Of a stretch of 64,000 bases of DNA, positions 4,954 to 45,858 are shown one piece after another. The notes beneath the pieces are model-generated. The model was not told the DNA's origin. It worked only from the letters and a program-made list of their open reading frames with translations, and did no database searches. Source of the stretch: a virus; IMG/VR virus record IMGVR_UViG_3300032313_000668, positions 1-64,000 of that record. The stretch is one strand, 5' to 3'. The translations under genes were made by a program, and so were the position numbers. Each line of letters begins with the position of its first letter. Positions within the stretch are counted from its first letter, which is position 1.

Positions 4954-7431
4954 ATGCCTGGATTCCTTGGCGGTTCAAGTGGCGGAACTACTGGCACTGG
5001 TGGAGAAATTACTTTTCCTAAAGAGTTTATTGACCCAGTAACTAAACTCCGTGTCTCTGAGCCCGCAAACCTCATTGACACCGACTTCGAGTATGGTCTA
5101 CAGCCAACCAAGTGGGAAACTGTTGAGCTTATCAACAACACTCCATCGTTCTTTTCTAAGAGCGGTGATACAACTATTCCCAACGTCGAGTCTATTACAA
5201 CAATTACGGGCTCCCGCGAAGTCACAGTTAAAACACTTCTAGACCACGGTCTAGCCGTTGGTACACCTATCAACGTAAATGGAACAAAGTCTCTTACCTC
5301 TGATGGTTCTTACATCATCAACTCAATCCCCAACTCAAAGACTTTTACTTATCTAGCTAAAGAAAACCAATTCCAGACATCTAGTATTGAAGACCTTTAT
5401 ACCTCTATTGTTACTGGAGAGTTTTTTCAGGGTTCTCAGATTAAAATTTCTGACGCTCGAGGCGTCGAGACAGATGGTGAGCCAGTATCAACTTTGACTG
5501 TACGTACTAGTAGTCCGCACGGTTTTGGTCCAAACACACCTCTTTACTTCTTAAACCTCAACTCCACAATTACTCAGGAATTTGATTCTACTAATACTGA
5601 ATCTAAGTCCTTTGATGCTTCTAACAACGTTACCGCTCGTACTTTTGATGGTTCCAACACAACATCTCAAACCAGACTTAACTTAAACAATAGTGCTACT
5701 AGCAACCCAACTAGCGTTGCTAGCGCCATCGTAGGAGTTAATACAGAGAATGACACAATATCTGTTAACCATATAACAGAAAACTTTCAGAATCTAAGAG
5801 TTGGAGCTGCTCTTCAGTATGAAGTAGTAGCAGCTGATGGGTACTTTTTAAATAACCCAAGGGGCGTTGTATTCCTAAAAACTAACAATGCTTTAGGCGC
5901 TTCATCTTCTACATTTGAAGTAAGCGAAATTCCAAACGGTACAACAATTAACATAACTTCAAACATGAGTGGTTTTTTCCAAATTGCTAACCTTGCAGCT
6001 TCATTTGCTGGAAGCAACTTAGATACCAACAATCAAACAAGTATATCTACTTCTAAAGGAAATGCACTAGAGTTTGACGGAGATAACTCAGAGGGTGCTT
6101 CTTTTACTGTTTCTAGCATCGCTGGCCTTGGAAACATCACCCTAAATGCAAATACAAACTGGGCTATCGGTCAGATGATTTTCTATAGCACAACTGGCTC
6201 AGCCGCTACTGGCTTGACAAACAACACAACATATTGGGTATCTGCACTAAATGTTCAGACAAACCTTATTAATATTTCTGACTCGCCAGGCGGAGCCACT
6301 CTAACTGCTATATCTGGTGGTACTGGAACGCAAACTTTTAGAGCAATTAGCGTGTCCGTAGATAGAGACGTAATTGCACTACCAGGACATGGTTTTCAAG
6401 AAGCAGACATGGTTTTATATGAGTATACCAACGGTGCTCGTATGACTACCAATAACGATACAAACGACTACTACTTTGTTAATAAAGTCTTTGATTCAAC
6501 ACACGTCTCTCTAACTAAAACTAAGGGATTTGTATTAGATGGAACAACTCAGGCTCGGGCTGCCGCGAGCGCCCAAGCTATTAAAGTCGTTAATCCATCT
6601 GCGGCAGATGGCCCTTACTGGATTAAGCCAGTTGGTAGTGCTAATGCTTACCTAACCTATTGCAACTTCTCTCTCGAGAGCGGTGGCTGGACTCAGGTTA
6701 TGAAGCTATCAAGCAACACCCTTCTAACCAACACCCTACCTGCTGCTACTGCTGGATTAACCTCTGCTGGTGCCACTGTCACATTTGGTCCTCACTGGGA
6801 TGGATGGTCATGGAACTCAGAAGGTCAGTACACAAGCTTATTCCCACTAGCTAATAACTCAACCTTTGCTGATATTGATGCATTTAGCCCGCTTTTCCAC
6901 CTTCTTCCATTCAATGACATCATGATTATTCAGATTACTAATACAGCTAACAGAATTGGATGGCGTCACAACGCAACTATTCCAAACATGCGAGCAGTTA
7001 CTGGTGGTACGAATCTATCTACTTATGGAAACTCATGGCTATTCCCGACTGCCTTTGCTGCCAACCCAGACGAATGGTCTATGACGCGTCGCTTAGGTGT
7101 TCACACAAGCGTTCGTACGGACCTTTTACAGACTGGTGGTCGTTTTGGCTTTAAGGTTCTATCGGACTACGCCAACAACTATGCAACAGTTAACAACTTT
7201 ATTAATGGCGGGTACAGCACCCTCAACTCAGACGCCGTAACTGGTCATGGTGTGTCCATGATTGGTATGGGTGGTACTGGAACTACAGGAGTTCGTTGGG
7301 GTGGTGGTATCGGATTTACCTATACAGCTAACTCACAATGGCGTGCTCATGGCCACTTCTACAACCAGGGAATCACATCTGGTGGAACATCTAACCGCAC
7401 ATTCCTTAATTTAGCAGTATTCGTCAGATAA
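4954..7431 (+). CDS. Tail fibre/adhesin with C-terminal fibrinogen-like domain
   Basis: The 825-aa protein begins with a Gly-rich stretch (MPGFLGGSSGGTTGTGG). A copy of the dispersed tail module follows (DHGLAVGTPINVNG, then SKTFTYLA, residues about 90-130). The middle is beta-rich and Thr/Asn-rich. A second module type (PGHGFQEADMVLYE) lies near residue 480. The last roughly 280 residues, from DGPYWIKPVGSANAYLTYC and FSLESGGWTQVMKL to the Gly-rich end, resemble a fibrinogen-related domain, a fold that usually binds carbohydrate or acetylated groups. The assignment rests on the YW-x-YC-x-GGWTQV pattern read by eye. The ATG overlaps an upstream TAA in another frame. Confidence 0.62.
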   Translation: MPGFLGGSSGGTTGTGGEITFPKEFIDPVTKLRVSEPANLIDTDFEYGLQPTKWETVELINNTPSFFSKSGDTTIPNVESITTITGSREVTVKTLLDHGLAVGTPINVNGTKSLTSDGSYIINSIPNSKTFTYLAKENQFQTSSIEDLYTSIVTGEFFQGSQIKISDARGVETDGEPVSTLTVRTSSPHGFGPNTPLYFLNLNSTITQEFDSTNTESKSFDASNNVTARTFDGSNTTSQTRLNLNNSATSNPTSVASAIVGVNTENDTISVNHITENFQNLRVGAALQYEVVAADGYFLNNPRGVVFLKTNNALGASSSTFEVSEIPNGTTINITSNMSGFFQIANLAASFAGSNLDTNNQTSISTSKGNALEFDGDNSEGASFTVSSIAGLGNITLNANTNWAIGQMIFYSTTGSAATGLTNNTTYWVSALNVQTNLINISDSPGGATLTAISGGTGTQTFRAISVSVDRDVIALPGHGFQEADMVLYEYTNGARMTTNNDTNDYYFVNKVFDSTHVSLTKTKGFVLDGTTQARAAASAQAIKVVNPSAADGPYWIKPVGSANAYLTYCNFSLESGGWTQVMKLSSNTLLTNTLPAATAGLTSAGATVTFGPHWDGWSWNSEGQYTSLFPLANNSTFADIDAFSPLFHLLPFNDIMIIQITNTANRIGWRHNATIPNMRAVTGGTNLSTYGNSWLFPTAFAANPDEWSMTRRLGVHTSVRTDLLQTGGRFGFKVLSDYANNYATVNNFINGGYSTLNSDAVTGHGVSMIGMGGTGTTGVRWGGGIGFTYTANSQWRAHGHFYNQGITSGGTSNRTFLNLAVFVR

Positions 7432-7480
7432 GAACTGAGTTACAATTAACTTTAGTCTGTCAGAGAAGGGTTGACCATAA

Positions 7481-10400
7481 ATGTCTCTTGATATCCAAGC
7501 AATTGGTGGTCTTGGTACACACACACTCCGTAAGGTAAACGTAAACCTTGCGGAAAATTACGTGTATTTTGCCAACCGCGATTCAGGGACTGCATATCCA
7601 ACAGCTATCACTGATGATGCCGCCTGGGTTTACCGCGAGGGTACTGGAAACATTACTGGCCTTACAACTGGAACTGTTTATTATACCAATACAGACCAAT
7701 ACTCTATAGCCTTTGCCTCTTCTGCTGGTGGCACAAATATTGACCTTACCGAGTACGTTGCTGGAACTGTAACTCTTAACTATCCAAACGTTTTCCAAAA
7801 CGCCTTAAACATTTCTTCTGTGAAATACGCAGACCAGCAAGCAGTAAAGTACTACACAAATTCAGACCCAATTAATGGTCTAACTTCTGGTCAAACTTAT
7901 TTTGTCAAAAACCAGCTAACTGGTTTAGGTGGAAGTGCTCTGTACCAGTTCAGCGACTTTACTTTTACAACTGGTGGAGTTACTGGACAGAATGGTCCGA
8001 CAATTGAGCAGCTTCGAGCTTCCTACTCTTCTGCATCATGGAGAAACTTATACCTAAATCAAGGAACATTCCAGGGATACCAAGACTGGACAGTTCCTGA
8101 AGATGGTGTTTACGAATTTAACGTAAAGGGTGCCCCAGGTCGTCAGGGTCGCGCACTTGGCGGTGGCGGTGCCATCATCCGAGGTAGAGTACGTCTTACC
8201 AAGGGTGAAATTATCACTATTGTCTGCGGACAACGCGGTGAGCTTCCTACTAGCGCAATTAACCACCCAGCATCTTCTGGAGCTTCTTTTGTAGTTAGAA
8301 AAAGTGGAAATATTCCACTCTTTATTGCTGGTGGTGGTTCTTCATCTTCTTCTGTAACAAATGGTTTAAATGCTGTAACCACAAACACTGGTGGAACTTC
8401 TAGCCGTGGATTTGTTGGTGGTACAAGCGGTAATGGTGCTGTTGGACGTAGCTCTGGTGGTGGTGGAGGAGGGTTCTTCTCCGCTGGTGGTAACTCCTCC
8501 AACGGTGGCACTGGTGGTGGTGGATTTAACAACGGTCTTCTCGGTGGTAATCCAGGCAACACTGCAAACGGTGGACGTGGCGGTTTTGGCGGTGGCGGTG
8601 GTGCTGATGGCCAAACTAACGGTAACCCTGGTGGTGCTGGTGGTTACTCTGGTGGTGCTACTAACGATGCTGCTGCAGGTGTTGGTGGTGGTGGAGGTTC
8701 ATTCGTTCTTGCCACAGCTACAAACATTGCAACTTCTGACGGACTATATAACGGAAGCAATAATCTTTTCGGTGTAGCAATTACAAACCTTGCCCAGTAC
8801 AACACAGGCGACGTTGAAGGTGAAGTATCTGTAACTCTAGTAGAGCGTTCAGTATTTGGATTTAAGTTGCACCCAACTGCAAGCGATGCAGAAGCTGGAT
8901 TGAATGAAATCCCTGTTTCACCTGCTGGCTCACAGTTCCACGCTTTTGTCCCAGTTACTCTTGATTTAACATCTGAAACAATTAACACACTTACTCCTCA
9001 TGGATTTTCTGAGGGAGAAGGTGTTCAGTACTTCTTTAATACAACCGCTGCTGGTGGTTTAGACGCATCTACCGTTTACTACATTGACCGAGTAGATGAC
9101 TACACATTTAAACTAAGCCTAACTCCAGACCCAAATTTTACTACAGTAAACATAACTCGCCCTGCTAACTCAACTATTCAGGGTTTCCGTAGAGTTATTG
9201 TTAATCCTTCTACGGACACAATTACTATTAATAACCATGGTTTCTTAGTAGACCAGCCAGTTAGATACTCTCCTGGCACTGGAACTGCTATTGCTCCTTT
9301 GCAGAACAACTCAACTTACTACATTAAAGATGTTGTTGATGCTAATAGATTTACATTAAGTCAGTCGCTTCAAGGTCCTGTTATCAACATAACCTCTCCT
9401 GGAACTGGCACATCACACAGCTTTATTTTGACTGTTGTTAATGATTTGGAAGACACTCTTTACGTACCTACTCACGGCTATGTCTCTGGTCAAACTGTTA
9501 GATACCAAAAGTCTAGAGACTTTGTAATTTCTAACGTTACTTCTTCTGGAACTACAAGAGTAATTAACACAGTTGAGCCACATGGTATTCAAGTTAACTC
9601 AAGAATTACTCTTGACAACTTCACAAGACCAGCAGTTTCTGCTCCATCAATTGTTGTAACACGTATTGCAAGCTCTGGTCAGACTAGAACTTTGACTCTT
9701 GCTGCCAACCACAACTTACAAACAGGTATGTTTATCCAAGTTAGCGGTCTTACTGGAGTAAACGCATCTAACTTTAACGGCATTCATGTAGTTACAGCTA
9801 TCCCAACAGGAAACACTCTTACATACACTGCTGAAGTTAGCTCGACTCTTTCTGAACTAATTCTTTCAGGTACTGCTACTACAATGCAACGCAAGCCAGC
9901 CTTTGAGTTTGTTGAGCACACACGTGTTCTAAATGTTAGAAGCATTGCTTCATCTGGAACAACTCGTACGATTGTGACTAACGAACCTCACTACCTCAGC
10001 ACAGGATACCCAATTTGGATTCAAGGAATCTCTGGTTCTGTAACAGGAATCCAGGGTGATATTGGAGAGTATTTCAATGGAATCTACTTTTTAGCAAGCA
10101 CACCTAGCACTAACACATTTACATATGTTGCAGCTCACGATGGCGAGCCATCAAACTTGCAGCCAGCTATTACTTTTAACACTACTGGTGTTGGTACTGG
10201 TGGAGTAAACCTTGGCGGAACCGTTTATCGAGAAGTTGTAGCTTCTGCTGTTACTTCCAACTCAATTAGCTATGTCATGCCTCAATCTTCTATAACAGTA
10301 AGCCCAGCAGAAACAGTTACTGGTCGCGTGTCAAAGATTGGTGTTCGATTAAACAACAGAAACCTAACAAACACTACTCTTGGTGACCTAACATTTGATG

Positions 10401-13400
10401 TTAACCACGACTTGCAAATTGGAGATAGATTCTCTGTTCGTACTCTAACTGGAGCAAATCAGGATGTATTCCGTGGAACTTATCGAGTCACTGCCACACC
10501 TTCTACTACTCGAGTTTCATACACCGCAAACCGTAAAACTGTAAATATCTCTCAGCGTCGTCTATCTAGCAATACTTCAATTATTGCTAACACAGCTCTG
10601 CCTCATGACTTTATAACTGGAAACTTTGTATATCTTGAAAATAACAGCGGTCTTGATGCCAACTTCTGGGATAACAAAGTAAATATTCTTAATAGAAGCA
10701 GTGAAGGTACTACAAGAACAATAAACACTGACAACCCACACTACTTGTCAATAGGTGACCGCTTTAGAATTACTGACTTGACTGGTGTTAATCCAGAGCT
10801 TTTCCAAGGAGATTGGGTTGTACTTGCTGTACCTAGCGCAACTCAGATTACCTTTACTGGTACAACATCTGTAAGCATTCCGCAGATTAACGTTACAGGA
10901 TTTGTTCAAAAAGCATATTCCATTACTCAAGGACCTGCATACACAGTTTCCGCGAGAAGCCGTGCTGCTAACGTAGCTGACATTACATTTACTGGAAACC
11001 ATGACTTATTAGTTGGCGAGCGAATTCGTATCGACAATATTGGTGGAGTAAACCCAGAACTGTTTAACGGCGAGTGGACTATCTCTGCCGTTCCTGCAGC
11101 TAACAGAGTTCAGTTTGTAACTCCTGCTTCTGGAACAGTAGCCAACGCAAGCGTTAGCGGAAACGTAAATGCTGTAAATCAAGTTCGTTTTACCATTCCT
11201 ACATATACACGAGCCTTGGCAAGCAGAGAGCTTATATCTCACACGGTGGCAAGCTTTACAACTACATTTGACCACTATCTTGCTGTTGGTACAACCATAA
11301 CAATTTCATCAATTACTGGAACAAGTCAGACCATATTTAACGGAACTTGGGTAGTTGCCTCTGTCCCTACTGCACGTACATTTACAGTAACTAGAACTCC
11401 TGCAGCTAACGTAACTACCTTCACTGTCACAAACCGTTCTAGAAGCGTAAACGTTGCAGATGTTACCTTCAACGCAGTTCACAACTTAAAAATTGGTGAC
11501 CAAATTACCATCAACAGTATTTCAGGTACAGACCCTGAAGTATTTAACGGTACTCACGTAATTACTGGCGTACCCACAACCAGCCGTGTACAATTCTTTA
11601 CTTTGACAGCTGGAGTTATTTCGTCTGCAGTTGTGACTGGAAACATTTTAGTTGAGCGAATTGCTACTGAAAACGTAAGCGGAACTACAACTCTTAACAC
11701 TATTCCAAACCAGACTCCTGCTGCTGGAAACCTTCTTCTCCGTGAGGTTGGTGCTTCTGCAATTACTGGAGAGCTAATTACAGATACCGAAATTCCAGGT
11801 CTTCAGAATCAGCAGATTTACTTTATTCAAAGAGTCGACGCTAACACAGTTCGTTTGTTTAATAATAGAAATCTAACACTACCTACAGACATTACTGGAT
11901 TTGGTATTGGCTCTCATGCGCTGGTTACATTCTCTGTAAACGTTGATGACGACTCAATTACTATTCCAAACAATGGATTTAGCCTTGGTGAACTAGTCGA
12001 GTACGACACAATAGGACAAACCGCTATTAGTGGACTAACTTCTGGTGTCCCTTACTACGTAATTCCAGTTGATGGAAATACTTTCCGTCTAGCTACAACT
12101 AGCCAAAATGCACAAGATGGAATTTATATTAATTTGCTTGCAACCCCTGCACCAGTAGGACGACACAAGCTAAAGTCTCTTATTAGAACTCCAGACGGAA
12201 CATACACAATTGGAAACGTTGTAGATGCTAACTCATTTGAGGTAACAGCTAATGGTTCCGTACCAGAGATTGTGAAGACATTTTCCCCAAGAACATCTGT
12301 AAACCTAGACCAGAACCTTATTCGAGTCCCATCTCACGGGTTCAATACTGGTACAGAGGTTACATATTTAAACGGTGGAGAAACATCTATCGGAGGTTTG
12401 ACAGATGACACTCACTACTACGTAATTGTTGTAAATAAAGACTTTATTCGTCTAGCTGAGACAGAGCTTGATGCTAACTCTGGTGTTCCTCTAACTTTAG
12501 AAACTTTTGGTGCTGGTAACGCTCATTCATTGACTACTCAGCAGATTAATGGTCAGATTACTGGTACAGGAATTATTACAACAACAGCTGGCTCAGTGTT
12601 GGTTTCTGGTTCTGGAACTTCATTCTCTAAAATTCTTAAAGTGGGAGATAGATTCCGAATCTTCCCGCCAGATGTGGCCCAGTCTGGATACTTTGCTGCT
12701 TCTAACATTACCACTGCAACAGAAGTAGTTGAAGTTGCAGCTCACCCATTTGTTACTGGAGATGCAGTTACATTCTCTCCAGGAACTGGTGGAGCACGTC
12801 GAGACATATTCCAGATTTCTGGTTCAACTACATCTAGAACAATCAGAACTCGAGAAGCACATGGCTACTCGAATGGAAATAACGTAACTATTTCTGGTTT
12901 AAGTTCTTCTGTTGGTGCAGACTTTGTTGGAACTTACACTATTACCAGCGTGCCTGACTTATATAGCTTTACATACAACCACCCAGTAAGCCTTGTTTCA
13001 ACAATTACAAATGAGTATCAAACAACTGGTTTGGCTCAGGCAACTGGTGCTGGTGGTGTGTCTCCGAACCCACTTGTAGAAGGATTCTTCTACTTTGTTC
13101 GCGCAATTCCTAACTCAAGCACCTTTAGCATCAACAACCGTCGTAGATTTACTGACGGAACAACCAGCTTCCTTGAGTTTACAACCACTGCTCCACACAA
13201 CATTCGTGCAGGAAACACTTTCACAATCACAAGCATCTCTGGTGTAAACCCAGAAGTGTTTAATGGAACTTTTGTTGCTGCAACTATTCCAAGCACTACA
13301 ACAATCCGCGTTGCGCTTCCAGCAATAATTGCCGACATTGCTGCAGCTGTTGTTACTGGAACATTGACTCCAAACTCCAGCAACACTATGACTCTGCACT

Positions 13401-16084
13401 CTCTAAAGAGTGATGCAATAGGTAACTTAAACCCAGTTGACTTTGCTACACAGGGTAGCGGTTTTGCTATGGCTCTTACTAAGACCATTCCATCAACACC
13501 TATTGTTCGAGAAATTGCTGCTATTGGTTCTGACACTCAAATCACAGTAAACCGACCATACAGCGCAACATTTACAGGAATTAACTTCTCTTACCCAACA
13601 TTCTTGTATGTACGTCCTCAGGGTTACTCACTGCACCGTCCATTCGATGGTGGTGTTGAGATGTCTACAGGATTTGGTACTTGGTATGGTCAGATTATTC
13701 GCCAGACTCGTAAATACTTCCGTTACCAGTCAGGTAAGGGTATTCAGACTTCTGCTGGTATCAACTTTAAGCCTTCAATTGATATTGAATCAATTGCAAG
13801 AGTTGGTACATCACAGGTAGTGGCAGTGCGAACAAGACGTCCTCATGGGCTGATTAACGGCCTACTATGTAGAATTGACGACACCTTAACTTCTCAGGGT
13901 GTTCTAAGCACGGTATACAACGGAACATTCCAAGTAACAGTTATTGACTCATTCAACTTTACCTTTATCGCGACTAATACAATCGTCGAGCCAATTGGTT
14001 ACGGCTACCCAAGACTCCACGTCACAGCGTGGGAAAATGGTGCACTGCGAGCTGGTATGTTCGACTTCCAGAACGGTATGTTCTTCGAGTTTGATGGTCA
14101 GAAGCTTTACGCAGTTCGTCGTTCCTCTACTCAGCAGATTGCTGGAACATGTGCAGCTCTACAGGGTTCCGAGCTTGTGTTTGGTACCGACACTCAATTT
14201 ACTCGTCAACTTACAGTTGGAGATTATATTGTTCTTCGTGGACAGAGCTATAAAGTAGCTTCTATCTTTAGCGACACTCGTATTTCTATCAAACCTGAGT
14301 ACAAGGGTTCTTCTGGAAACGAAAAAGAGTTTAACCCTGGTAATGGAACTACTGGAGTAGTTAAGGTAGCTGACAACTACTTTAACCTTATCAATCATGG
14401 TTTTGCTAACAACTTGCCAGTCGTTTATAACTCAATTGATGGAAGTCCAATTGGTGGTCTAATTACTGGACGTACTTACTATGTAAGTGTTGTAGATAAC
14501 AATAGATTTAGATTAAAGTCTAGCCCAGACGCTATACAGAATGTAACTTTGTCAAGTCCTGGAACTGGCACTCCTCACTCATTTATCCCAGCAAAGACTG
14601 GAATTATTGCAACCCTTACAGAAGATGTTAAGGCACCGCAAGAAGAGTGGACCATTGACCCTTGTGATGGAAGCGGCCCAACTGGCTACGACCTTGACTT
14701 GTCTAAAATTCAGATGATTTACATGGACTACTCTTGGTACGGTGCGGGTAAGATTCGTTACGGTTTCAAGACAACCGACGGTCAAGTTCGTTATGTACAC
14801 GAGTTTATTCACAACAACCGAAAGTACGAATCATACTTCCGCTCTGGTAACTTGCCAGCTCGCTATGAGGTAACTACCTTCAATAACCCAACCTACATTC
14901 CATCCTTGTTCCACTGGGGTACTTCGGTAATGATGGATGGTAAGTTCGATGATGACCGTGCCTACTTGTTCTCTAAGTCAAGCCCATCTCTAAATATTGG
15001 TGGAACAACAGCAAAGACCTTTGGTTCAACTGCTATTAACCCACTTAGAGAAATTATTAACATCCCTTCTCACGGTTTCAATACAGGAGATGCTCTTACC
15101 TTTACTGGAACCAGCTCTACTGGTCAGCCACAGGTAAACGCTCAAAACCCTACACTTGAAGTTGTAGCAGGAGTGCAGACAGCTACAAACCTAGACAACT
15201 CTCGAGTTGTGTTTGCTAGAGCACTAAATGCTAACAACATCATTCTGTACCCAACTCAAGCTTTTGCTAACGTAGCTCCAGTTCTAATCACTAGTAGACA
15301 AAAGATTAACGGAGTTGTGACTATAACAACTGGTGCTGCTCATGGATTTAGTATTGGAGACAGCGTTTGGGTAAACCTATCAACAGATAGTCAGGCTGAC
15401 GCATTTAACGGTTCGTTCAGAGTACTTTCTGTCCCAAGCGGAACTCAGTTTACATACAACAATGCGGCTCAGGGTGGTTTCTTTACAACTGGCTCCGCAA
15501 CCCCGCCTGTAGCATCAATTGCTGCAAGAAATGTAATTAACTTTACAAACCAAGGTAACCCTACTGCTACATATGCTCTTGCTCCAGGTGGTGCCCTAAA
15601 TAACACCTCTGGCACAAACTACCAGCCACTGATTTCGCTCCGTTTGAGCCCCTCAGTATCTGAAGGTTTGACTGGTGCTCTTGGTGACCGCGATGTTATT
15701 AACCGAATGCAGCTACGTCTAAATGAAATTGGTGTTCAGACAAACCAACTAATCGACGTTAAGGTTCTACTTAATGGTCGTTTGAACAACCTAAACTTCC
15801 AGTCAGTAGATGTACCTTCTCTGGTTCAAGTTATTGAACACACATCTAACGACACCATCTCTGGTGGAGTTCTTGTTTATAACTTCCGAGCTAACGGTAA
15901 CAACGGAGTAGAGCAATCTACACTTGTAGATATCAGTCAGTTGTTTGAGCTTTCAAACTCTATTTTGGGTGGAAACAGCGTATTCCCCGATGGACCAGAT
16001 ATTATTACAATTGCGGTTGCTCGTTTGACAGGTTCAGAAACACTAGCTTCCGCGAAGCTATCGTGGGCTGAAGCTCAGGCGTAA
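7481..16084 (+). CDS. Giant 2867-aa modular virion structural protein / tail fibre
   Basis: This is the largest + strand gene. Residues about 185-435 form a glycine-rich domain (VPEDGVYEFNVKGAPG, then GGGGGGFFSAGG) like the Gly-rich domain family that includes the ALK/LTK receptors. Residues about 450-2000 hold many tandem beta modules of two kinds. One has HGF-x-VxY ... YYV-x-VDxNxFRL; the other has HyL-x-GxxI ... FNGTxxV-x-VP-x-TFTY. From about residue 2040 the sequence changes: FDGGVEMSTG, FRYQSGKGIQ, IQMIYMDYSWYGAGKIRYGF, FRSGNLPARYE and a C-terminal MQLRLNEIGV ... LLNGRLNNLNF. These resemble virion structural proteins of T4-like cyanophages, recalled from knowledge and not searched. It is probably a long tail or baseplate adhesin. 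Confidence 0.72.
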   Translation: MSLDIQAIGGLGTHTLRKVNVNLAENYVYFANRDSGTAYPTAITDDAAWVYREGTGNITGLTTGTVYYTNTDQYSIAFASSAGGTNIDLTEYVAGTVTLNYPNVFQNALNISSVKYADQQAVKYYTNSDPINGLTSGQTYFVKNQLTGLGGSALYQFSDFTFTTGGVTGQNGPTIEQLRASYSSASWRNLYLNQGTFQGYQDWTVPEDGVYEFNVKGAPGRQGRALGGGGAIIRGRVRLTKGEIITIVCGQRGELPTSAINHPASSGASFVVRKSGNIPLFIAGGGSSSSSVTNGLNAVTTNTGGTSSRGFVGGTSGNGAVGRSSGGGGGGFFSAGGNSSNGGTGGGGFNNGLLGGNPGNTANGGRGGFGGGGGADGQTNGNPGGAGGYSGGATNDAAAGVGGGGGSFVLATATNIATSDGLYNGSNNLFGVAITNLAQYNTGDVEGEVSVTLVERSVFGFKLHPTASDAEAGLNEIPVSPAGSQFHAFVPVTLDLTSETINTLTPHGFSEGEGVQYFFNTTAAGGLDASTVYYIDRVDDYTFKLSLTPDPNFTTVNITRPANSTIQGFRRVIVNPSTDTITINNHGFLVDQPVRYSPGTGTAIAPLQNNSTYYIKDVVDANRFTLSQSLQGPVINITSPGTGTSHSFILTVVNDLEDTLYVPTHGYVSGQTVRYQKSRDFVISNVTSSGTTRVINTVEPHGIQVNSRITLDNFTRPAVSAPSIVVTRIASSGQTRTLTLAANHNLQTGMFIQVSGLTGVNASNFNGIHVVTAIPTGNTLTYTAEVSSTLSELILSGTATTMQRKPAFEFVEHTRVLNVRSIASSGTTRTIVTNEPHYLSTGYPIWIQGISGSVTGIQGDIGEYFNGIYFLASTPSTNTFTYVAAHDGEPSNLQPAITFNTTGVGTGGVNLGGTVYREVVASAVTSNSISYVMPQSSITVSPAETVTGRVSKIGVRLNNRNLTNTTLGDLTFDVNHDLQIGDRFSVRTLTGANQDVFRGTYRVTATPSTTRVSYTANRKTVNISQRRLSSNTSIIANTALPHDFITGNFVYLENNSGLDANFWDNKVNILNRSSEGTTRTINTDNPHYLSIGDRFRITDLTGVNPELFQGDWVVLAVPSATQITFTGTTSVSIPQINVTGFVQKAYSITQGPAYTVSARSRAANVADITFTGNHDLLVGERIRIDNIGGVNPELFNGEWTISAVPAANRVQFVTPASGTVANASVSGNVNAVNQVRFTIPTYTRALASRELISHTVASFTTTFDHYLAVGTTITISSITGTSQTIFNGTWVVASVPTARTFTVTRTPAANVTTFTVTNRSRSVNVADVTFNAVHNLKIGDQITINSISGTDPEVFNGTHVITGVPTTSRVQFFTLTAGVISSAVVTGNILVERIATENVSGTTTLNTIPNQTPAAGNLLLREVGASAITGELITDTEIPGLQNQQIYFIQRVDANTVRLFNNRNLTLPTDITGFGIGSHALVTFSVNVDDDSITIPNNGFSLGELVEYDTIGQTAISGLTSGVPYYVIPVDGNTFRLATTSQNAQDGIYINLLATPAPVGRHKLKSLIRTPDGTYTIGNVVDANSFEVTANGSVPEIVKTFSPRTSVNLDQNLIRVPSHGFNTGTEVTYLNGGETSIGGLTDDTHYYVIVVNKDFIRLAETELDANSGVPLTLETFGAGNAHSLTTQQINGQITGTGIITTTAGSVLVSGSGTSFSKILKVGDRFRIFPPDVAQSGYFAASNITTATEVVEVAAHPFVTGDAVTFSPGTGGARRDIFQISGSTTSRTIRTREAHGYSNGNNVTISGLSSSVGADFVGTYTITSVPDLYSFTYNHPVSLVSTITNEYQTTGLAQATGAGGVSPNPLVEGFFYFVRAIPNSSTFSINNRRRFTDGTTSFLEFTTTAPHNIRAGNTFTITSISGVNPEVFNGTFVAATIPSTTTIRVALPAIIADIAAAVVTGTLTPNSSNTMTLHSLKSDAIGNLNPVDFATQGSGFAMALTKTIPSTPIVREIAAIGSDTQITVNRPYSATFTGINFSYPTFLYVRPQGYSLHRPFDGGVEMSTGFGTWYGQIIRQTRKYFRYQSGKGIQTSAGINFKPSIDIESIARVGTSQVVAVRTRRPHGLINGLLCRIDDTLTSQGVLSTVYNGTFQVTVIDSFNFTFIATNTIVEPIGYGYPRLHVTAWENGALRAGMFDFQNGMFFEFDGQKLYAVRRSSTQQIAGTCAALQGSELVFGTDTQFTRQLTVGDYIVLRGQSYKVASIFSDTRISIKPEYKGSSGNEKEFNPGNGTTGVVKVADNYFNLINHGFANNLPVVYNSIDGSPIGGLITGRTYYVSVVDNNRFRLKSSPDAIQNVTLSSPGTGTPHSFIPAKTGIIATLTEDVKAPQEEWTIDPCDGSGPTGYDLDLSKIQMIYMDYSWYGAGKIRYGFKTTDGQVRYVHEFIHNNRKYESYFRSGNLPARYEVTTFNNPTYIPSLFHWGTSVMMDGKFDDDRAYLFSKSSPSLNIGGTTAKTFGSTAINPLREIINIPSHGFNTGDALTFTGTSSTGQPQVNAQNPTLEVVAGVQTATNLDNSRVVFARALNANNIILYPTQAFANVAPVLITSRQKINGVVTITTGAAHGFSIGDSVWVNLSTDSQADAFNGSFRVLSVPSGTQFTYNNAAQGGFFTTGSATPPVASIAARNVINFTNQGNPTATYALAPGGALNNTSGTNYQPLISLRLSPSVSEGLTGALGDRDVINRMQLRLNEIGVQTNQLIDVKVLLNGRLNNLNFQSVDVPSLVQVIEHTSNDTISGGVLVYNFRANGNNGVEQSTLVDISQLFELSNSILGGNSVFPDGPDIITIAVARLTGSETLASAKLSWAEAQA

Positions 16085-16093: not shown

Positions 16094-16618
16094 ATGGCTA
16101 TCACTCGGTTGGGGACAGCTAGGCCCAATGCAAACCAAGCTGTTTCGTTATTTACTTTTACAGAAAGCTATTTAGTTTCTGTAATTGCTGCTAACGTTAA
16201 CAGCACTACTACTCCAATTCCTAGAGTATCTATTTTTGTCATACCTTCAGGCGCAGTAACAGAAACATCGTACTCTTACGTTGCTGCAAACATTACTCTC
16301 CCGTTCGGAACATCTTTTGAAACATTCCGATTTGCTGTAAACCCTGGGGATGTTTTAACAGTAAGACCGACAACAGCCGATGTGGCATTTACTGCCTATG
16401 GAATTATTCAAGATGATGTTGTAGGTCAAGGCGACTTACCTCAGACATTTACAAATAAAGTTATTAGAGGAGACTTTAATACTTTATATGTAGAGAGTGG
16501 AACTACTGCTCAAAGAAATCCAGCTTCAGAAGTGGGCTATGTACGTTTTAACACAGAAGCCGATACCCTAGAGGTGCGAACCTCCGCTGGGTGGAAGAGA
16601 GTGACGGTTACAGAATAA
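16094..16618 (+). CDS. Fibre-associated structural protein, hypothetical
   Basis: The 174-aa protein starts [11 protein letters not shown] and has a beta-rich domain ([20 protein letters not shown], then [16 protein letters not shown]). The same domain opens the next gene ([20 protein letters not shown], then [15 protein letters not shown]). The C-terminus has a small Trp element ([20 protein letters not shown]) related to the GxxWxN...Y-x-G-x-W inserts in the collagen fibres. The stop TAA (16616-16618) overlaps the next ATG, implying translational coupling. It may be a fibre anchor lacking the collagen shaft. No enzymatic motif is visible. Confidence 0.6.
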
Positions 16619-33704: not shown

Positions 33705-35703
33705 TTCTTTGTGTCTTCCAATCTGTTATTAGTTCTAGTTCTACTGCTTCGGGGAATGTCGGACTGTCTGGAACACTCACCTTAATAGAGTTTATCTTTC
33801 GGTATAAACGGTCATCTAGTGGTTCTTGGTCGCTTGCAAGGCGTTGAAGCACAAACTCATCATCAGCAGAGAAAGTGCACCAATCCCCTGGGTAGTATGA
33901 CCCAACAATCGGAGCAAGCGAGCCATTTACAGCGATGCTATATGTCCCAACTGGTGGTCTGGATTCGTTGAGGTAGTCAAGTGCATAGTTATATAGAGAC
34001 TCTTCATCCTCCACTGAATCCATTTTCTCAACTTGGTCAAGAAGTGGCCAGCTACGACCGCTTTTGTTGTTAAGCATGTCTTTTGCAGATGCTCCTGCGT
34101 AAGGCTGACTTGCATCGTCTGTAAGGTCTTCAATATTTCCAACTACAAAAAATCTAGTAGAGGCATCTTCTGCAGTTTCATCAATAGCAAAGTTGATAAC
34201 ATTTCCAGGATAGATAAACATTAAATCTTCTGCGCCTAGTTCTTTTGGTGTAAGTTTTTCTCCAGTTTCAGAGTTATATCTAGTCTCCTGACCAAACCAC
34301 ATTGTGCGTGTAAATTGACCAGTATCGAAGTCATAGTCGCAGTCAATTCGATAATCAAATCCACCCTCGGTTGTGTTGGAATATTTCTCAAGAATTTCTC
34401 CAACAGTTAGCTGCTCAAAACCACGAATAACTTGAGTATCTTGATAAAACCCACTCAATATAGTTCCAAATGGTTCGCTGTAGTAGTCAATGTCAATGTC
34501 ACCGTTTGCAGTAAAGCTACCGTAATCTCCGTAAATAACTTTTGAACCTAAAGTAGCAACTCCACCTCTTGCTGATTCAGGTGGTACGTCTAAAATTCCT
34601 CCAGACTTAAAAGTAAAACTATTAGCAGTAGGAGTCCCAGTAATTGTAAAACGACCATTAAAAATTGTGTCAAGTCGACCAGATAGGTAGGAGTCAATAC
34701 CAGTCACAATTACAGTCTCCCCGACTGAAGCCTGGTGATTACTTTCCAAGGTTAATAGTGCAGTGAAATTTGTAAGCTGCTTTGTTGTGACGTTTAATGT
34801 TCTTAAACCAGGCAAAGAAGTTGTAGGAACATCTGGACCGTTTAGCTCAAAACGAATTGTTCTGTTGTCTGGAACCTCGGTGCATGTGTGTATACCGTCA
34901 AGGTTAGAGCCGACTTCAACAACTTGAATTTCTTGACCAGGAATGACATCGTGGTTTGTAGAAGTTTTAAGAGTTACTACTCCTCCAGAACGCTGCTTTG
35001 AGACAATTGAAACTTGAATTTCTTTAGCTGGCTTGATTACTTCATTAGGGAATCCTAGTCCACCTAAATCTGTAGACATTCTATAAATAAGGTCACGAGC
35101 AAAGTCATAGTTATCAACCAAGCTACGGAAAGCGCCACTGATAATTCCAGTGCCACTTCCATTTGCAGAAGTAGTAGCAAACTGGAAGGTTGTTGCACTT
35201 TGAACGTTAGTAATAGTGTGGATACCATCAACAAGAGGGCTAGTAAAAGTAATTTTTACTTTATCTCCAGCAGAGAACCCGTGAGGTGTTTCAGTTGTTA
35301 TGGTGGCTACTTGGCTGACAATTGAGAAACTAGGGATACCAATAAAATCTGAACCATATTGGATTGTTTGCCAGATATTGCGGTGATAGAAGTAGCTTGT
35401 AAATTCTGCTCCTTCTACTCCCATATTTCTAGAAGCAACATCATAAGAGCGTGACCACACCATTCCGCCCCAAACACAGACGTTGTTGCGAACAACATAC
35501 AAACCAGTGCGTCCTGGCATCGTGGACTCGTAAAGGTTTATTCCTTTGGTTGCTTCAATAAATGGGATGGTTCCGCTAAACCCACCAGCTCTTTTATTTG
35601 CACGCTCGAAGGAGACACCTTTAAAAGGTACTTCTGCAATGACCTGATTTGAGAGTAGGTCAGTAAGGAAGTATCGGTAACTAACTTCTGTTTGTAATGA
35701 CAT
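33697..35703 (-). CDS. Siphovirus minor tail protein, Gp37-like, with inserted modules
   Basis: The 668-aa protein resembles the Siphovirus ReqiPepy6 Gp37-like family of distal tail proteins. Supporting motifs are LYVVRNNVCVWGGMVWSRSY near the N-terminus, later FEQLTVGEILEKY and YRIDCDYDFDTG, and a C-terminal YYPGDWCTFSADDEFV. Between the N- and C-terminal family parts are three copies of the dispersed module (PHGFSAGDKVKITF ... HTITNV; VIPGQEIQVVEV; ASVGETVIVTG ... FNGRFTITGTP). The family probably forms part of the baseplate hub. It overlaps the S74 fibre start by 8 bp. Confidence 0.72.
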   Translation of the reverse strand: MSLQTEVSYRYFLTDLLSNQVIAEVPFKGVSFERANKRAGGFSGTIPFIEATKGINLYESTMPGRTGLYVVRNNVCVWGGMVWSRSYDVASRNMGVEGAEFTSYFYHRNIWQTIQYGSDFIGIPSFSIVSQVATITTETPHGFSAGDKVKITFTSPLVDGIHTITNVQSATTFQFATTSANGSGTGIISGAFRSLVDNYDFARDLIYRMSTDLGGLGFPNEVIKPAKEIQVSIVSKQRSGGVVTLKTSTNHDVIPGQEIQVVEVGSNLDGIHTCTEVPDNRTIRFELNGPDVPTTSLPGLRTLNVTTKQLTNFTALLTLESNHQASVGETVIVTGIDSYLSGRLDTIFNGRFTITGTPTANSFTFKSGGILDVPPESARGGVATLGSKVIYGDYGSFTANGDIDIDYYSEPFGTILSGFYQDTQVIRGFEQLTVGEILEKYSNTTEGGFDYRIDCDYDFDTGQFTRTMWFGQETRYNSETGEKLTPKELGAEDLMFIYPGNVINFAIDETAEDASTRFFVVGNIEDLTDDASQPYAGASAKDMLNNKSGRSWPLLDQVEKMDSVEDEESLYNYALDYLNESRPPVGTYSIAVNGSLAPIVGSYYPGDWCTFSADDEFVLQRLASDQEPLDDRLYRKINSIKVSVPDSPTFPEAVELELITDWKTQRNG

Positions 35704-35731: not shown

Positions 35732-38053
35732 TTAGCCGAGCCAACCAGAGCGGTAATACACCCTTAAGGATGCCGTACTTTCTGGGTTCCCATTGTCGTA
35801 AAACTCAATCTGGTTTTCTCCAGGAGCAAGCTCAATAAAGTCTGCCAAGATATCAATTCTACCTCTTGCACCATTTACATCACCGTTAAAAGCTACTTCT
35901 TTATTCTTGGTGTCTATCTCAAGGATGTCTGCGCTCAATACAGCGGAAGCACCAGATATTCCAGGGAAGAACTGAATGTCGTTCTTCTGAATTGCTTTAC
36001 CAGCTGAGAAAGTCCTAGCAATAGTGTCAGAAACAGTCGCCACTCCGTTTACTCCCCGAAATGCAAGAGTTCCAGCAACTGTTGCTTGTCCCGCTGGGAT
36101 TACATCTTGAAGATTAATAGTCCCTGGGATTTCAGCAAAGGCACCAGTTACGTCAGCTGCAACAACATTACCTGCTGTTTTTTGATATGTAAAAGTATTG
36201 GCTGTTGGGATAGAAACAACGGTGTATGTTCCATTAAAAGTTGCATCGATTCCACTTATAACAACTTGCTCACCGAGGAGCATACCGTGAGAGTTTGTAG
36301 TAGTTATTGTTACTATGTTTCCAATAAGTCCTCTTGACTTAATTACACGCTTACGGGAACGAACTACTACGTTGTTAACGGTAGTTGCATTAATACTAGT
36401 CAGTCCAGTTTTTGTAAATGTAAAAGTAGTGCTGGATGGCAAAGTTGTAATTGCGTAGGTTCCATCTAGTGTGCTACTTCCCTCGATGGTGACGTCCTCA
36501 CCTACAAGGAAGTTGTGATTTTCAGAAGTAGTAATGGTTACAGTAGTACCAGATACAGCCGTTAGTGCGACAGATTTTTGAGTAGAGCGAACTCTTTTAT
36601 ATGAAAATGTATCTGAAGTAACTGCAGAAATTGTATATCCACCATTTAGAGAAATGTCTACTGCTGTTATGTTTACTGGTTCAGCCGCAATGAACCCGTG
36701 TACCTCAGAGGTTGTCAGGGTTACAACATCGTTTGTCATTATTTTGGAGATAATGCTGCGAGCATTAGTACGGGTGGCAGCATATGAAAATTGATTTGGA
36801 GAAGGTATGTCAGTAATAATTGCTGAAACTTCATTATAGTTTTCATCAATACCAGTTACGGTTACTGCTTCTCTTAAAATAAACTGGTGAGGGTCGGTTG
36901 TTGTGAGTGTTGCGATATTAGAAACAAGTACTGCACCAATAACATTTCTTGGTGGAATACGGGTTTTTGGAAAAGTAAAAGTAGTAGACGAAGGCGTAGA
37001 TGCTATTGAATAGTTGCCATCAAAAACAGCATCTACTCCAGCAACAGTAATTTGCTGACCACTAGTAAACCCATGCGGTGTAGTTGTTTCTATTGTAGCT
37101 ACACTGCTTTGTAAAGTCTTATGAGAGACATTTCTTACGGTTGCTGCATCAGCTTCAAATGTAAATGTGGTGTCAGTTGGTACTGAAATAATAAGCTGGT
37201 CACCGTCAAAAGGCTCACCCACACCAGAGATGTAAACAGAATCTCCTGCTTTGAAGTCGTGCTTTGCTGTAGTTGTTAGTGTTGCAATATCTTTAAGAAC
37301 TGTAACGTCATATTCAAGTTGCTTATTTACAATATTGCGAGAGATACTGCCTTTTAGACCTTGAACGATTCCAATAAGTTGATTAGTTGTTCTATTCCAA
37401 ATCTCTCCTGGAGCAGTAAGCTCTCCAGTTACTTCGAGGTAACACGGTACTTGATAGTTTCCAATATTAGTTACAGTGTCAATTCCGTCGTAGTTAAGGT
37501 CTGAATTCTTTGCTGGAATTTCTACATAGTTGTAACCATCTGGGTCAACATCGTTCCATGCGTACTTAATTGGGTCTGGAGCGCGAAGGGGGATTGAAAA
37601 CTCGGTGCGTCCACGAGCATTAACAGTGTTAATTTCTACATCGCCAGCAAGACGAACAAAAGAAGCGCGAATTGGGTTGTTACCAGTCTTTAGCCAAGCA
37701 CCTTTGTATACAAGATTTGTTGCAGCAACAAGTCGGTCACGGGCAGCTTCAACGAGTGCTGGGTCTGGTACAAGGAAGGTTCCAGTTAGATTTAAAGAGC
37801 GAGCAACATACTTTCCCTGAACATCATATGAGCCATCGCCCCAACCGCGCTCAATATCTGGTACTTCTGCAGATGGGTGTTGCCACCAACCTTCAATGTC
37901 GCTAATTACCCAAGTAACACCAAACTCATCAATAGTGTTAAAGATAAAGTCTCCAAGAATAATGTTTCCTTGAAGTTTTAGTTTTTCAATTTCATTTGGC
38001 TGTAAAGGTGTCAGCCCTCGATTGACATAATAGTTCTCTCTAGCTTGTGACAT
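35732..38053 (-). CDS. Distal tail protein (Dit-like) with six inserted beta modules
   Basis: The 773-aa protein starts with a siphoviral distal-tail domain (FNTIDEFGVTWVISDIEGWW, then GSYDVQGKYVARSLNLTGTF). Residues about 250-625 are six tandem modules of about 60 aa with THGF or PHGF and then TYTVVSIPTANTFTY. The C-terminal part (ILADFIELAPGENQIEFYDN, then YYRSGWLG) looks like the closing strands of the tail domain. The modules therefore seem inserted inside it. The protein would ring the tail tip beneath the tape measure. The ATG overlaps the tape measure stop (TAATG). Confidence 0.75.
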   Translation of the reverse strand: MSQARENYYVNRGLTPLQPNEIEKLKLQGNIILGDFIFNTIDEFGVTWVISDIEGWWQHPSAEVPDIERGWGDGSYDVQGKYVARSLNLTGTFLVPDPALVEAARDRLVAATNLVYKGAWLKTGNNPIRASFVRLAGDVEINTVNARGRTEFSIPLRAPDPIKYAWNDVDPDGYNYVEIPAKNSDLNYDGIDTVTNIGNYQVPCYLEVTGELTAPGEIWNRTTNQLIGIVQGLKGSISRNIVNKQLEYDVTVLKDIATLTTTAKHDFKAGDSVYISGVGEPFDGDQLIISVPTDTTFTFEADAATVRNVSHKTLQSSVATIETTTPHGFTSGQQITVAGVDAVFDGNYSIASTPSSTTFTFPKTRIPPRNVIGAVLVSNIATLTTTDPHQFILREAVTVTGIDENYNEVSAIITDIPSPNQFSYAATRTNARSIISKIMTNDVVTLTTSEVHGFIAAEPVNITAVDISLNGGYTISAVTSDTFSYKRVRSTQKSVALTAVSGTTVTITTSENHNFLVGEDVTIEGSSTLDGTYAITTLPSSTTFTFTKTGLTSINATTVNNVVVRSRKRVIKSRGLIGNIVTITTTNSHGMLLGEQVVISGIDATFNGTYTVVSIPTANTFTYQKTAGNVVAADVTGAFAEIPGTINLQDVIPAGQATVAGTLAFRGVNGVATVSDTIARTFSAGKAIQKNDIQFFPGISGASAVLSADILEIDTKNKEVAFNGDVNGARGRIDILADFIELAPGENQIEFYDNGNPESTASLRVYYRSGWLG
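36180..37300 (-). repeat. Six tandem protein modules within the Dit-like gene
   Basis: Six units of about 60 residues each share the pattern (T/H)(H)GF-x-xGxxVxVxGxDxxFxGxYxIxxxPsxTTFTF. DNA identity between units is low, so this is old duplication and not recent slippage. Confidence 0.75.
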
Positions 38054-42226: not shown

Positions 42227-42258
42227 AAGAGCCTTTCCGTTAACGTAAGGCCAGAGGT

Positions 42259-43569: not shown

Positions 43570-43584
43570 GTCATTAACCTCTTT

Positions 43585-44727
43585 TTAAGCAATCGCGATT
43601 GGGATTGAGCTTGGCTGCCCTAATTGATAGATAACATTTCCTGTTAGCAAATTGATGACCTCATCTACTGCAGGGTTTCCTAAACTAGGACGAGATGCGT
43701 ACAAATCTACTGTTCCTGGGTCACGAGGACCTAAGACAGACAAAATGTCTGCATACGAAGCGCTTAGTCTAATTGTACCCTCTACAGAGTCCAAAACAGC
43801 GGCACTTTCTAATGTTTTTGTTACCGTGTTATTAAAGTTTGACATTACTGCATACACATTCCAAGATTCATCATCTGTAAGGAAGTCTCCACCAAACTCA
43901 TTTAGGTAGTAGACCTGGGTTCCACCTGTAGAGGTGACATATAAATCAAATGCAGATAGCTCAAAGGCTGGTGAATGACCAATAATTCTACGAGCACGAG
44001 GTGTGTCTGGGGAGAACACCCGAGAACGTGCACGAGCTTTGTCTGGGTTGGCAGTTTTAAGAAAAAGGTCTACTGCATAGATACCAGTCTTTAGTTCATC
44101 TACGAACGACTGGTTATCTAAGACTGTATAAGTTACACCCTGTCGAGCAACGGTTGTTACACGCTGAGGTAGGGCGCAAGTGTCGTCATTTTCGTAAAGC
44201 TTTACAAGTTCTGTAGCCAAGATACGTGCTGCTGCTTTTCCAGCTGATGGTGGAGGAGAACCATATGTGTAAGTGACTTCTACGTTGGCTGCAGACCAAT
44301 TAGCATTTGGTGTACCAAAAATCGTAGAGTGGTCTGAAAGATAATAAGTGGATGGGTCAATAATTTCACCATCTTGATTGCGGAGAGCATGTACTTCAAC
44401 AACTTTACGACCACGCAGGCGTACACGGCTGTATGAAGAACTTCCATCTCCTTGGTAGTCTCGGTGGGAGTAACGACCAGAACCACCCTGAGGAACGTTT
44501 TCTACCTGTCCCTCTATAAGAATTGGGGTGTAGTTAAACCTAGAGCCACCAGCTCTTAGGAATGGGTCATAAGCGGATACATAACGCTCTGTAACAGTTG
44601 TAGTACCGCTGAACTTGCGTCCTGACAATGCCCAAAGCATGTAGGAAGCAGTTTTTACAGCTTCATATGCGTAATCGGAGTCAGCGTAAACACCAAGCTC
44701 TTCGACATCTGTCCAGAGATTGCTCAT
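43585..44727 (-). CDS. Head-to-tail connector (adaptor) protein
   Basis: The 380-aa protein starts with a helical adaptor-type domain: AVKTASYMLWALSGRKFSGT, then YRL-like RGRKVVEVHALRNQDGEII, YYLSDHSTIFG, VEVTYTYGSPPP and AARILATELVKLYENDDTCA. This is the usual head-tail adaptor layout of actinophages. A C-terminal extension of about 150 residues (FSPDTPRARRIIGHS onward) is beta-rich and not recognised. It forms the ring beneath the portal. It follows a strong terminator at 44756-44803. Confidence 0.75.
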   Translation of the reverse strand: MSNLWTDVEELGVYADSDYAYEAVKTASYMLWALSGRKFSGTTTVTERYVSAYDPFLRAGGSRFNYTPILIEGQVENVPQGGSGRYSHRDYQGDGSSSYSRVRLRGRKVVEVHALRNQDGEIIDPSTYYLSDHSTIFGTPNANWSAANVEVTYTYGSPPPSAGKAAARILATELVKLYENDDTCALPQRVTTVARQGVTYTVLDNQSFVDELKTGIYAVDLFLKTANPDKARARSRVFSPDTPRARRIIGHSPAFELSAFDLYVTSTGGTQVYYLNEFGGDFLTDDESWNVYAVMSNFNNTVTKTLESAAVLDSVEGTIRLSASYADILSVLGPRDPGTVDLYASRPSLGNPAVDEVINLLTGNVIYQLGQPSSIPIAIA

Positions 44728-44755
44728 TCCGTCACCTTATCCTTTTAATAGTAAA

Positions 44756-44803
44756 GGCGGGCAGAAGCCGAGTAGATAAACCACCTACGGCAATCTGCCC
44801 GCC
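44756..44803 (-). terminator. GC-rich intrinsic terminator after the major tail protein gene
   Basis: A 10-bp perfect stem GGCGGGCAGA (44756-44765) / TCTGCCCGCC (44794-44803) encloses further pairing (GCCG-TAG with CTA-CT-CGGC). On the - strand it is followed by TTTACTATT. It lies 8 bp after the major tail protein stop and before the connector gene, so it should limit read-through from the highly expressed capsid-tail tube genes. Confidence 0.8.
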
Positions 44804-44811
44804 CGAACTAA

Positions 44812-45858
44812 TTACGCTGTTGGGTCCTCAGTTGAAGCAATGATGAAGTCAATTGCATCGTCTGGGTTGTATGTGTCAGAACCTGGAACGTTGTATGTAT
44901 CTGTTGAACCTTGTGAGTCAAAGTCAGATACTGCAAGATATCCACGAGCACGGACTGCTGAACCTACTGGGCTAACTGCTGTAGATGCAACATCTGTTGC
45001 AACCTTTGCATAGCGGAAGCTTGTTGTAGTTGGAACTGCAGTGATTGTGTAGGTTCCATTGAAAGTGGAATCTACGCTGCTGATTGTTACAGACTGACCA
45101 ACTTCGAATCCGTGTGCTGAACCTGTTGTAAGGGTTGCAACGTTTGAAGTTAGAGCCTTGTTGTTGATAGTCTTTGTTGACTCGTCGAACCAGCGGTAGA
45201 AGCCCTTAAGACCCTGAGGTGCCCAGTCAGTGCGTGCATAAGCGTATGGACGCTCAGTCGCGATTGGGTACTCCCAACGGCCATCAAGACCTGAATCAAA
45301 TTCAATGTTTCCAAGGCCGTAACCTTCGAATGTGTTAGCAAGAAGACCATTCTCAATTACACGGTCACCTGACTGACGAAGCTTGACGTATGGGAATACC
45401 CAGTAGAAGTAAGGAAGTGTGCTTGCACGCTTTCCGTCCTTAACTGCGAAAGACCATACCTCAACAGCAACACCGTTGCCTGCTGGGTCATCGCCAACGG
45501 CAGGGGCAGCCCAACCAATTGACTTGTTCTCTGGTGATGCGTAAGAACCGAAGTTCTTGCGAAGTAGCAAACCACCTGACATAAGAGCTGTTAGCTCTGG
45601 GTCTGGGTCGCAAATTGCGATTTCCATAGTGATTCGCTTGAGGGTGTCAGGAGCTTTGTAAGATACACATACTGTACCGTCTGCTGACTTCTCAACGATT
45701 TCGTCACCCTCTTCATATTCAGGGGTGAATGATGTACGAAGGAATGCAGAGGTAGTGTAGCTATCTCCTGCACCCGTTAGTAGGTTGCCAGCGGCGTCAA
45801 GTCGAGTGACTCGGATTGCAACGCCTTGGACGCTGGCTGCGTAGTCCTGTGTAGCCAT
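44812..45858 (-). CDS. Major tail (tube) protein with C-terminal beta module
   Basis: The 348-aa protein fits a siphoviral major tail protein. Its features are VQGVAIRVTRLDAAGNLLTG, then YTTSAFLRTSFTPEYEEGDE, VCVSYKAPDTLKRITMEIAI, and LRQSGDRVIENGLLANTFEG. Near residues 235-295 it has one copy of the dispersed module (AHGFEVGQSVTISSVD, then FNGTYTITAVPTTTSFRY), which would project from each tube subunit. A strong terminator follows the gene and the capsid genes precede it. Tube identity is from order and composition; the fold is known from the family. Confidence 0.8.
   Translation of the reverse strand: MATQDYAASVQGVAIRVTRLDAAGNLLTGAGDSYTTSAFLRTSFTPEYEEGDEIVEKSADGTVCVSYKAPDTLKRITMEIAICDPDPELTALMSGGLLLRKNFGSYASPENKSIGWAAPAVGDDPAGNGVAVEVWSFAVKDGKRASTLPYFYWVFPYVKLRQSGDRVIENGLLANTFEGYGLGNIEFDSGLDGRWEYPIATERPYAYARTDWAPQGLKGFYRWFDESTKTINNKALTSNVATLTTGSAHGFEVGQSVTISSVDSTFNGTYTITAVPTTTSFRYAKVATDVASTAVSPVGSAVRARGYLAVSDFDSQGSTDTYNVPGSDTYNPDDAIDFIIASTEDPTA

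Follow-up and report, generated by a model that had tools for sequence, protein, structure and literature searches.

Does a unit of about 60 amino acids (aa) that recurs in several tail proteins of one virus represent a single domain and, if so, what is it and what might it do on the virion? The question is raised by a 64,000-nucleotide stretch of DNA (the window) that opens a 118,251-bp IMG/VR virus record (IMGVR_UViG_3300032313_000668); it belongs to a freshwater phage that, judging from its closest named relatives, probably infects actinobacteria, and these relatives include DSL-LC01, with Actinomycetia as presumed hosts (PMC10611076), and others whose host is Microbacterium. A first-pass annotation, made from the letters of the window, had noted the unit in the major tail protein (MTP), the distal tail protein (Dit), a Gp37-like minor tail protein, an 825-aa fibre and a 2867-aa protein, and had read it as a virus-wide surface tile set between parts of known domains and spreading by duplication, possibly for glycan binding or antigenic variation. 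We find one homologous domain, a predicted six-stranded β-barrel, in all five proteins, and discuss below its fold, insertion, age and possible role in adhesion.

One domain in five tail and fibre proteins

The profile search that the first-pass annotation had proposed was made with a hidden Markov model (HMM) built from the six Dit copies alone and run against the 404 window open reading frames (ORFs) of at least 50 aa, taken in six frames. Besides Dit, it matched only the MTP, Gp37-like, 825-aa and 2867-aa ORFs; all five named ORFs are present as described there, and the copy counts and coordinates given for them are correct (Table 1). Altogether about 23 copies are spread over these five tail and fibre proteins, with one clear copy in the 825-aa fibre and, in the 2867-aa protein (whole-protein expectation value, E, 3.9e-50), about 10-12, a count that depends on the threshold. 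Half-module profiles, A for the first three strands and B for the last three, follow one another as ABABABABABAB in Dit, ABABAB in the Gp37-like protein and AB in the MTP. A ten-copy profile detected 621 domains in the 8544 ORFs of all loci and none in the same proteins reversed; with it, no module was found in the remainder of the record outside the window (L003-L005), and within the record modules are confined to virion proteins.

A short unit, rich in common residues such as T, G and V, might be no more than a chance motif shared by unrelated folds. This explanation was rejected and is given almost no weight: for the MTP, Dit and Gp37-like copies it is contradicted by E values down to 1e-21, by the absence of matches to reversed sequences and by the same predicted strands in MTP and Dit. 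One homologous domain in the MTP, Dit, the Gp37-like protein and the fibres is thus confirmed, and chance excluded. Less settled are the repeats of a second, longer variant (type 2), of which the 2867-aa protein has five strong copies: their relation to the module is weak (hhalign probability 26%), and their being the same domain is suggestive only. As to the name “Gp37-like”, Pfam gave it no support whether the modules were excised or not, the sole family match of the protein being phrog_1885, “minor tail protein”.

Fold and insertion into virion proteins

Structure prediction of the insertions, another step suggested in the first-pass annotation, yielded confident AlphaFold2 barrels in both MTP (32-sequence alignment) and Dit (25-sequence alignment; mean predicted local distance difference test score, pLDDT, 87). 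The MTP module has six predicted strands (227-237, 240-245, 256-260, 268-274, 280-284 and 290-303), and in the Dit array, from the 62-aa period and the strand list, the closing strand of each unit appears to double as the opening strand of the next. A Foldseek search with the MTP model placed at the top UBA6/UBA1 (probability 1.00, E 2e-3; for UBA6, 9qiv_B, a root-mean-square deviation of 3.3 over 92 columns) and the phi92 endosialidase, with the K1F endosialidase close behind. The aligned part of UBA6 is probably its FCCH domain, because of the Pfam match and the length, the aligned E1 residues not being in the Foldseek output. A profile search of the PDB with the module likewise reached the phi92 endosialidase (residues 195-244, E 5.6e-4).

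In Pfam, PF16190 (E1_FCCH) has a cut-off of 29.5; the 2867-aa protein passes it with 32.6 bits and the DSL-LC01 ortholog of that protein with 29.8, and Dit (20.8), the MTP copy (15.1) and the Gp37-like protein (10.2 bits) stay below it. Single copies matched PF16190 in 11 of 44 cases and the endosialidase barrel PF12195 in 3 of 44 at E <= 0.1 (best for PF12195, 0.0069), mostly below cut-off; in the five full proteins, Pfam called neither PF12195 nor any immunoglobulin (Ig) family, nor the adenylation or catalytic-cysteine domains of E1. The module is a member of the E1 FCCH domain fold, not of the ubiquitin E1 enzyme, and the models and profiles show it as a predicted six-stranded β-barrel of the E1-FCCH/endosialidase-barrel fold. 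The domain is already known to databases (PF16190), one viral protein in BFVD, from an uncultured phage, being titled “Ubiquitin-activating enzyme E1, FCCH domain containing protein”; its fold could not be seen in the first pass, and a literature search found no paper describing FCCH domains in phages.

The module is an insertion module, as shown in the MTP: the DSL-LC01 protein, 74% identical to the window MTP over the matched parts, has a clean empty site (GFYTW, then STTGAYTAVSDF). The MTPs of the Gordonia phages Sixama and Phendrix and of the Arthrobacter phage Mimi are without the whole C-terminal part, and no module occurs anywhere in these three genomes. For the other proteins we infer insertion. 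Taken from both sides of the array, the Dit core matches the SPP1 Dit fold (2x8k, template modelling score 0.51-0.56 by target), and removal of the modules raises the score of the SPP1_Dit model from 32.6 to 35.6 bits, with its first 38 positions still unmatched; the empty MTP site and this core bear out the proposed insertion between parts of a known domain. In the Gp37-like protein, a profile search found no counterpart of module 1 at the corresponding place in DSL-LC01. Among relatives, Dit carries 1, 6 or 7 copies, the MTP 0 or 1, and the Gp37-like protein 2, 3, 5 or 6.

The spread is virus-wide, as had been claimed, and wider still, in that two relatives (L097 and L115) have the module also within a phrog_779 protein and the head-tail adaptor. 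An HK97-like C-terminus and a position next to the major head protein make the phrog_779 protein, whose family has no assigned function, a likely head protein. Phage ct2KA10 has a single module in a 732-aa protein that is unrelated, and another single module, outside recognised phage context, lies in an uncultured Anaerolineae metagenome-assembled genome (MAG), within a 2384-aa protein that is probably secreted; this MAG protein was the only match in a host-genome scan with the MTP, which found no prophage. In a further relative (L080), the third Gp37-like module bears in the loop between its third and fourth strands (the b3-b4 loop) a foreign segment of about 60 aa (about residues 366-435; VVTVSSATNLKPGMLVTGTNISPGTSIRSISGTSVTLD) that looks like another small β domain and is missing from L062; the loop is therefore able to take insertions.

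Age of the copies and half-module nests

In a tree of 218 module copies, the nearest neighbour was the same-position copy of another genome for 190 and a copy in the same genome for five. Ratios of nonsynonymous to synonymous substitution rates (dN/dS), rough values with dS near or above 1, are 0.095 for the MTP tube and 0.18 for its module, and 0.19, 0.35 and 0.24 for the N-terminal part, modules and C-terminal part of Dit, the modules diverging faster than the cores of their host proteins. The copies are thus old, position-orthologous and individually kept, under moderately relaxed purifying selection. Spread by duplication stands in so far as copy number differs among lineages, most visibly in Dit; the duplications are old, not ongoing, and recent duplication was rejected, since residue identity among the ten window copies compared (MTP, Dit and Gp37-like) is no higher than 14-44%.

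The same data bear on two further explanations. A single genome with many copies could support antigenic or phase variation via recombination among them, the former being one of the first-pass suggestions, yet the age of the copies, their individual retention and their moderate relaxation argue against it; with so few same-genome nearest neighbours, no homogenisation, in-window DNA identity of 37-56% and dN/dS well under 1, we consider it highly improbable. The module might instead be a near-neutral promiscuous insertion domain, kept since it is nearly harmless, as proposed for some phage Ig-like domains. Many unrelated proteins, including the head protein and the head-tail adaptor, do tolerate it, and most mutations of the K1F barrel are tolerated (PMC12632334), but its presence in 97 of 98 complete MTPs and the MTP ratio of 0.18 make this unlikely.

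A different arrangement is found in five Microbacterium phages (Pumpernickel, A3Wally, Cece, Zooman and Big4), which are relatives and so stand for few independent events. Here half-modules form runs, A with a period of about 36 aa and B of about 42 aa, nearly balanced in number. The last hairpin of Dit holds seven A in Pumpernickel and Zooman, with two B in the Dit gene and another five in the gene that follows, and eight A in A3Wally and Big4, with three and five B; one A in each of the latter is weak (4.3 and 3.3 bits, against 3.1-3.5 bits for A in the reversed control), so that the difference may be between 7 and 8. In Cece the half-profile calls seven A, an eighth emerging only with the full-module profile (29 bits), and two weak B calls (3.5 and 3.7 bits) are taken as noise. 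The Gp37-like proteins of all five show an A-run followed by a B-run, the B beside the last A being mostly missed by the profile and read by eye.

The Dit C-terminus itself appears divided. A 34-residue profile of it, searched in 2399 ORFs, matches, in each of the five phages, with positions of about 1-15 inside the Dit gene and about 18-34 (RSGW) at the very end of the gene after it, and more strongly only in the intact Dit of DSL-LC01. Taken singly the matches are weak (E from 0.001 up to 1.8; an unrelated ORF reaches 0.45), and it is their complementary positions, gene order and repetition that give them force. The environmental contig L113 has the same split, with eight A and three plus four B, and L114 has the downstream half. 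Stop-codon readthrough as the sole cause was rejected, as the frames between the two genes vary among the phages (0, 2, 0, 2, 1). An extra stretch of about 200 aa (about residues 720-920) was also observed between two A half-modules of the Dit nest of L113.

The simplest reading of these sequences would be recursive insertion followed by division of Dit into two genes. We lean towards a course in which the module inserted itself repeatedly into its own b3-b4 loop, producing nests of the form A-A-A-A-A-A-[A B]-B-B-B-B-B-B, some 6-8 levels deep, in Dit and the Gp37-like protein, and the Dit nest was cut by a gene boundary, leaving the A halves and the innermost B halves upstream and five B with the last strand (RSGWxG) in the next gene; two polypeptides would then have to come together to complete the Dit core and most of the barrels, perhaps as a snap-together rod at the tail tip. 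If nesting and split are true, a single small domain has been used in an unusual way to build a long appendage, and Dit annotations in a group of cultured phages should be corrected.

The fibre region of the window has other features. Residues 539-582 of the 825-aa fibre match NF040941 (E 1.8e-9) as a fibrinogen-like YCDxxxxGGGW domain, which may be the end that binds a receptor, and the 2867-aa protein includes a glycine-rich ALK/LTK-like stretch (PF12810, slightly under cut-off), which presumably explains why its DSL-LC01 ortholog carries the annotation “ALK tyrosine kinase receptor”. On either side of the fibres with modules lie several collagen-like GPTGPTG proteins.

Table 1. Coordinates of module copies, the proteins that carry them and associated features (window positions unless a locus is named).
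Feature	Coordinates	Strand	Residues and remarks	Evidence
MTP ORF	44812-45858	-	1 copy	HMM E 1.4e-21
MTP module	44950..45177	-	228-303, between tube domain and C-terminal tail	HMM E 1.4e-21; AlphaFold2 pLDDT mostly 87-96; empty site in DSL-LC01
Dit, six tandem modules	36134..37306	-	~250-640, period ~62 aa, within Dit core	HMM, half-modules, AlphaFold2 pLDDT ~87-95
Gp37-like minor tail protein ORF	33697-35703	-	3 copies	HMM E 1.7e-7 to 1.2e-10
Gp37-like module 1	35149..35331	-	125-185	HMM, half-modules
Gp37-like module 2	34813..35001	-	235-297	HMM, half-modules
Gp37-like module 3	34597..34785	-	307-369, b3-b4 loop 8 aa longer	HMM, half-modules
825-aa fibre ORF	4954-7431	+		
825-aa fibre, module	5203..5382	+	84-143	HMM E 2.7e-8
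825-aa fibre, longer second repeat variant	6355..6573	+	~468-540	type-2 HMM 82 bits, by construction (was seed)
2867-aa ORF	7481-16084	+		
2867-aa protein, ALK/LTK-like stretch	8099-8719		207-413	PF12810 slightly under cut-off
2867-aa protein, module-rich part	9536..11635	+	686-1385	HMM, half-modules; Pfam E1_FCCH 8.2e-8
2867-aa protein, module	12824..13009	+	1782-1843	HMM, half-modules
2867-aa protein, module	13181..13321	+	1901-1947	HMM, half-modules
2867-aa protein, module	15293..15472	+	2605-2664	HMM E 5.1e-11
Collagen-like proteins	471-4881, 16591-18561			
phrog_779 protein and head-tail adaptor with module	L097:2-1090, 2249-3637; L115:899-2020, 3190-4560		orthologs of window 45889-46779 and 43585-44727	
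Gp37-like protein with foreign segment	L080:8270-10939			
Anaerolineae MAG protein	L109:8942-16093		one module	
Split Dit over two adjacent genes	L103:12997-18963; L104:12394-18572; L105:10734-15875; L111:2292-8251; L112:1612-7795; L113:1-5631		in half-module nest; second gene ends in RSGWxG strand	
Dit nest with extra stretch	L113:1-3276			

Possible roles and comparison with known systems

As to function, we give a rough probability of 0.58 to the barrels acting as many weak adhesion sites for host surface polysaccharide. Adhesion is favoured because the phage relatives of the fold lie on glycan-handling tailspikes and because modules of lactococcal phages occupy the same places. The K1F barrel holds one of three sialic-acid binding sites and is a hotspot of host discrimination (PMC12632334), while the barrel inserted in the LKA1 tailspike makes the substrate groove deeper (PMC5701251). 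In phages of the 936 group, neck, MTP and Dit bear sugar-binding modules, and for two of these modules attachment to host cells was shown (PMC6669499); evolved Dits restored adsorption to polysaccharide-bearing hosts (PMC10688798). Dit and MTP of the window, too, have an extra β domain inserted relative to classical relatives, as evolved Dits and decorated MTPs do, and the union of module and fibrinogen-like domain in the 825-aa fibre is counted for adhesion. Glycan binding by the module, raised in the first-pass annotation, is plausible by this analogy.

The long first and last strands, apparently side by side, would let the barrel drop into surface loops without disturbing the host protein, and the lineage would in this way have placed it on the tail tube, on Dit (six per chain), on the Gp37-like protein and on the fibres. 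With one barrel on each MTP, a tube made of hexamer rings would display hundreds of barrels on every virion, and their weak contacts with polysaccharide might hold the particle close to the cell until it engages its main receptor.

Several points weigh against adhesion. It is argued from fold and analogy, binding being deduced from them, and to our knowledge the E1 FCCH domain is not known as a sugar binder. Selection is purifying, with no sign of the positive selection that a contested receptor interface might show, and the MTP, Dit and fibre copies differ greatly and need not have one common ligand. In addition, the tube part of the MTP model is poor (pLDDT 26-60), none of its Foldseek matches passes 1e-3 (E about 2e-3), and the endosialidase match to the module is weak in sequence.

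The purifying selection, and the conservation of copies by position, would also suit a structural role, in which the barrels bind nothing themselves and act as spacers, stabilisers or stiff extensions of tail and fibres. Rods would result from tandem and nested arrays, DALI in the LKA1 study also links that barrel to a P22 capsid domain with a presumed stabilising effect on subunit contacts (PMC5701251), and the Ig domain of lambda gpV alters activity without a known ligand (PMC8718954). However, copy number varies in both Dit and MTP, so that no copy is generally essential for assembly, and modules diverge faster than cores; a purely structural role is possible but clearly the less probable. 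Whether as adhesion sites, which we prefer, or otherwise, the barrels join the Ig-like domains of tailed phages as a second class of promiscuous accessory domain; they are located on tail tube, tail tip and fibres, and relatives have them on a head protein and the adaptor as well. The same protein with 0, 1, 6 or 7 copies offers a natural experiment on the role of decoration domains.

Among known systems, PF16190 E1_FCCH provides the above-cut-off match (in the 2867-aa protein) and the top fold match, and is itself a barrel inserted in a host protein; here, in contrast, there is no E1 adenylation domain or ubiquitin pathway, and single MTP and Dit copies fall under the cut-off. The endosialidase barrel PF12195 of K1F and phi92, matched in fold and weakly in sequence, is a domain of a phage adhesin, with a sialic-acid site in K1F, whereas the window proteins have no sialidase domain and need not keep the sugar-contact residues. 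The barrel of the LKA1 gp49 tailspike also has six strands and interrupts another phage domain (Foldseek probability 0.87), but it is a single copy that forms part of an enzyme active site, and its Foldseek E is only 0.28. Phage Ig-like domains, described on tailed phages (Fraser et al., 2006, as cited in PMC8718954), are likewise promiscuous accessory β domains of virion proteins; they are Ig sandwiches, not six-stranded barrels, and are C-terminal in the tube proteins reviewed (PMC8718954), whereas the module sits in loops and arrays. The carbohydrate-binding modules of lactococcal 936 phages, in neck, MTP and evolved Dit, share with it their virion places, the logic of insertion and a presence that varies among relatives; they are not one module family at all places, and binding, demonstrated there, is proposed here by analogy.

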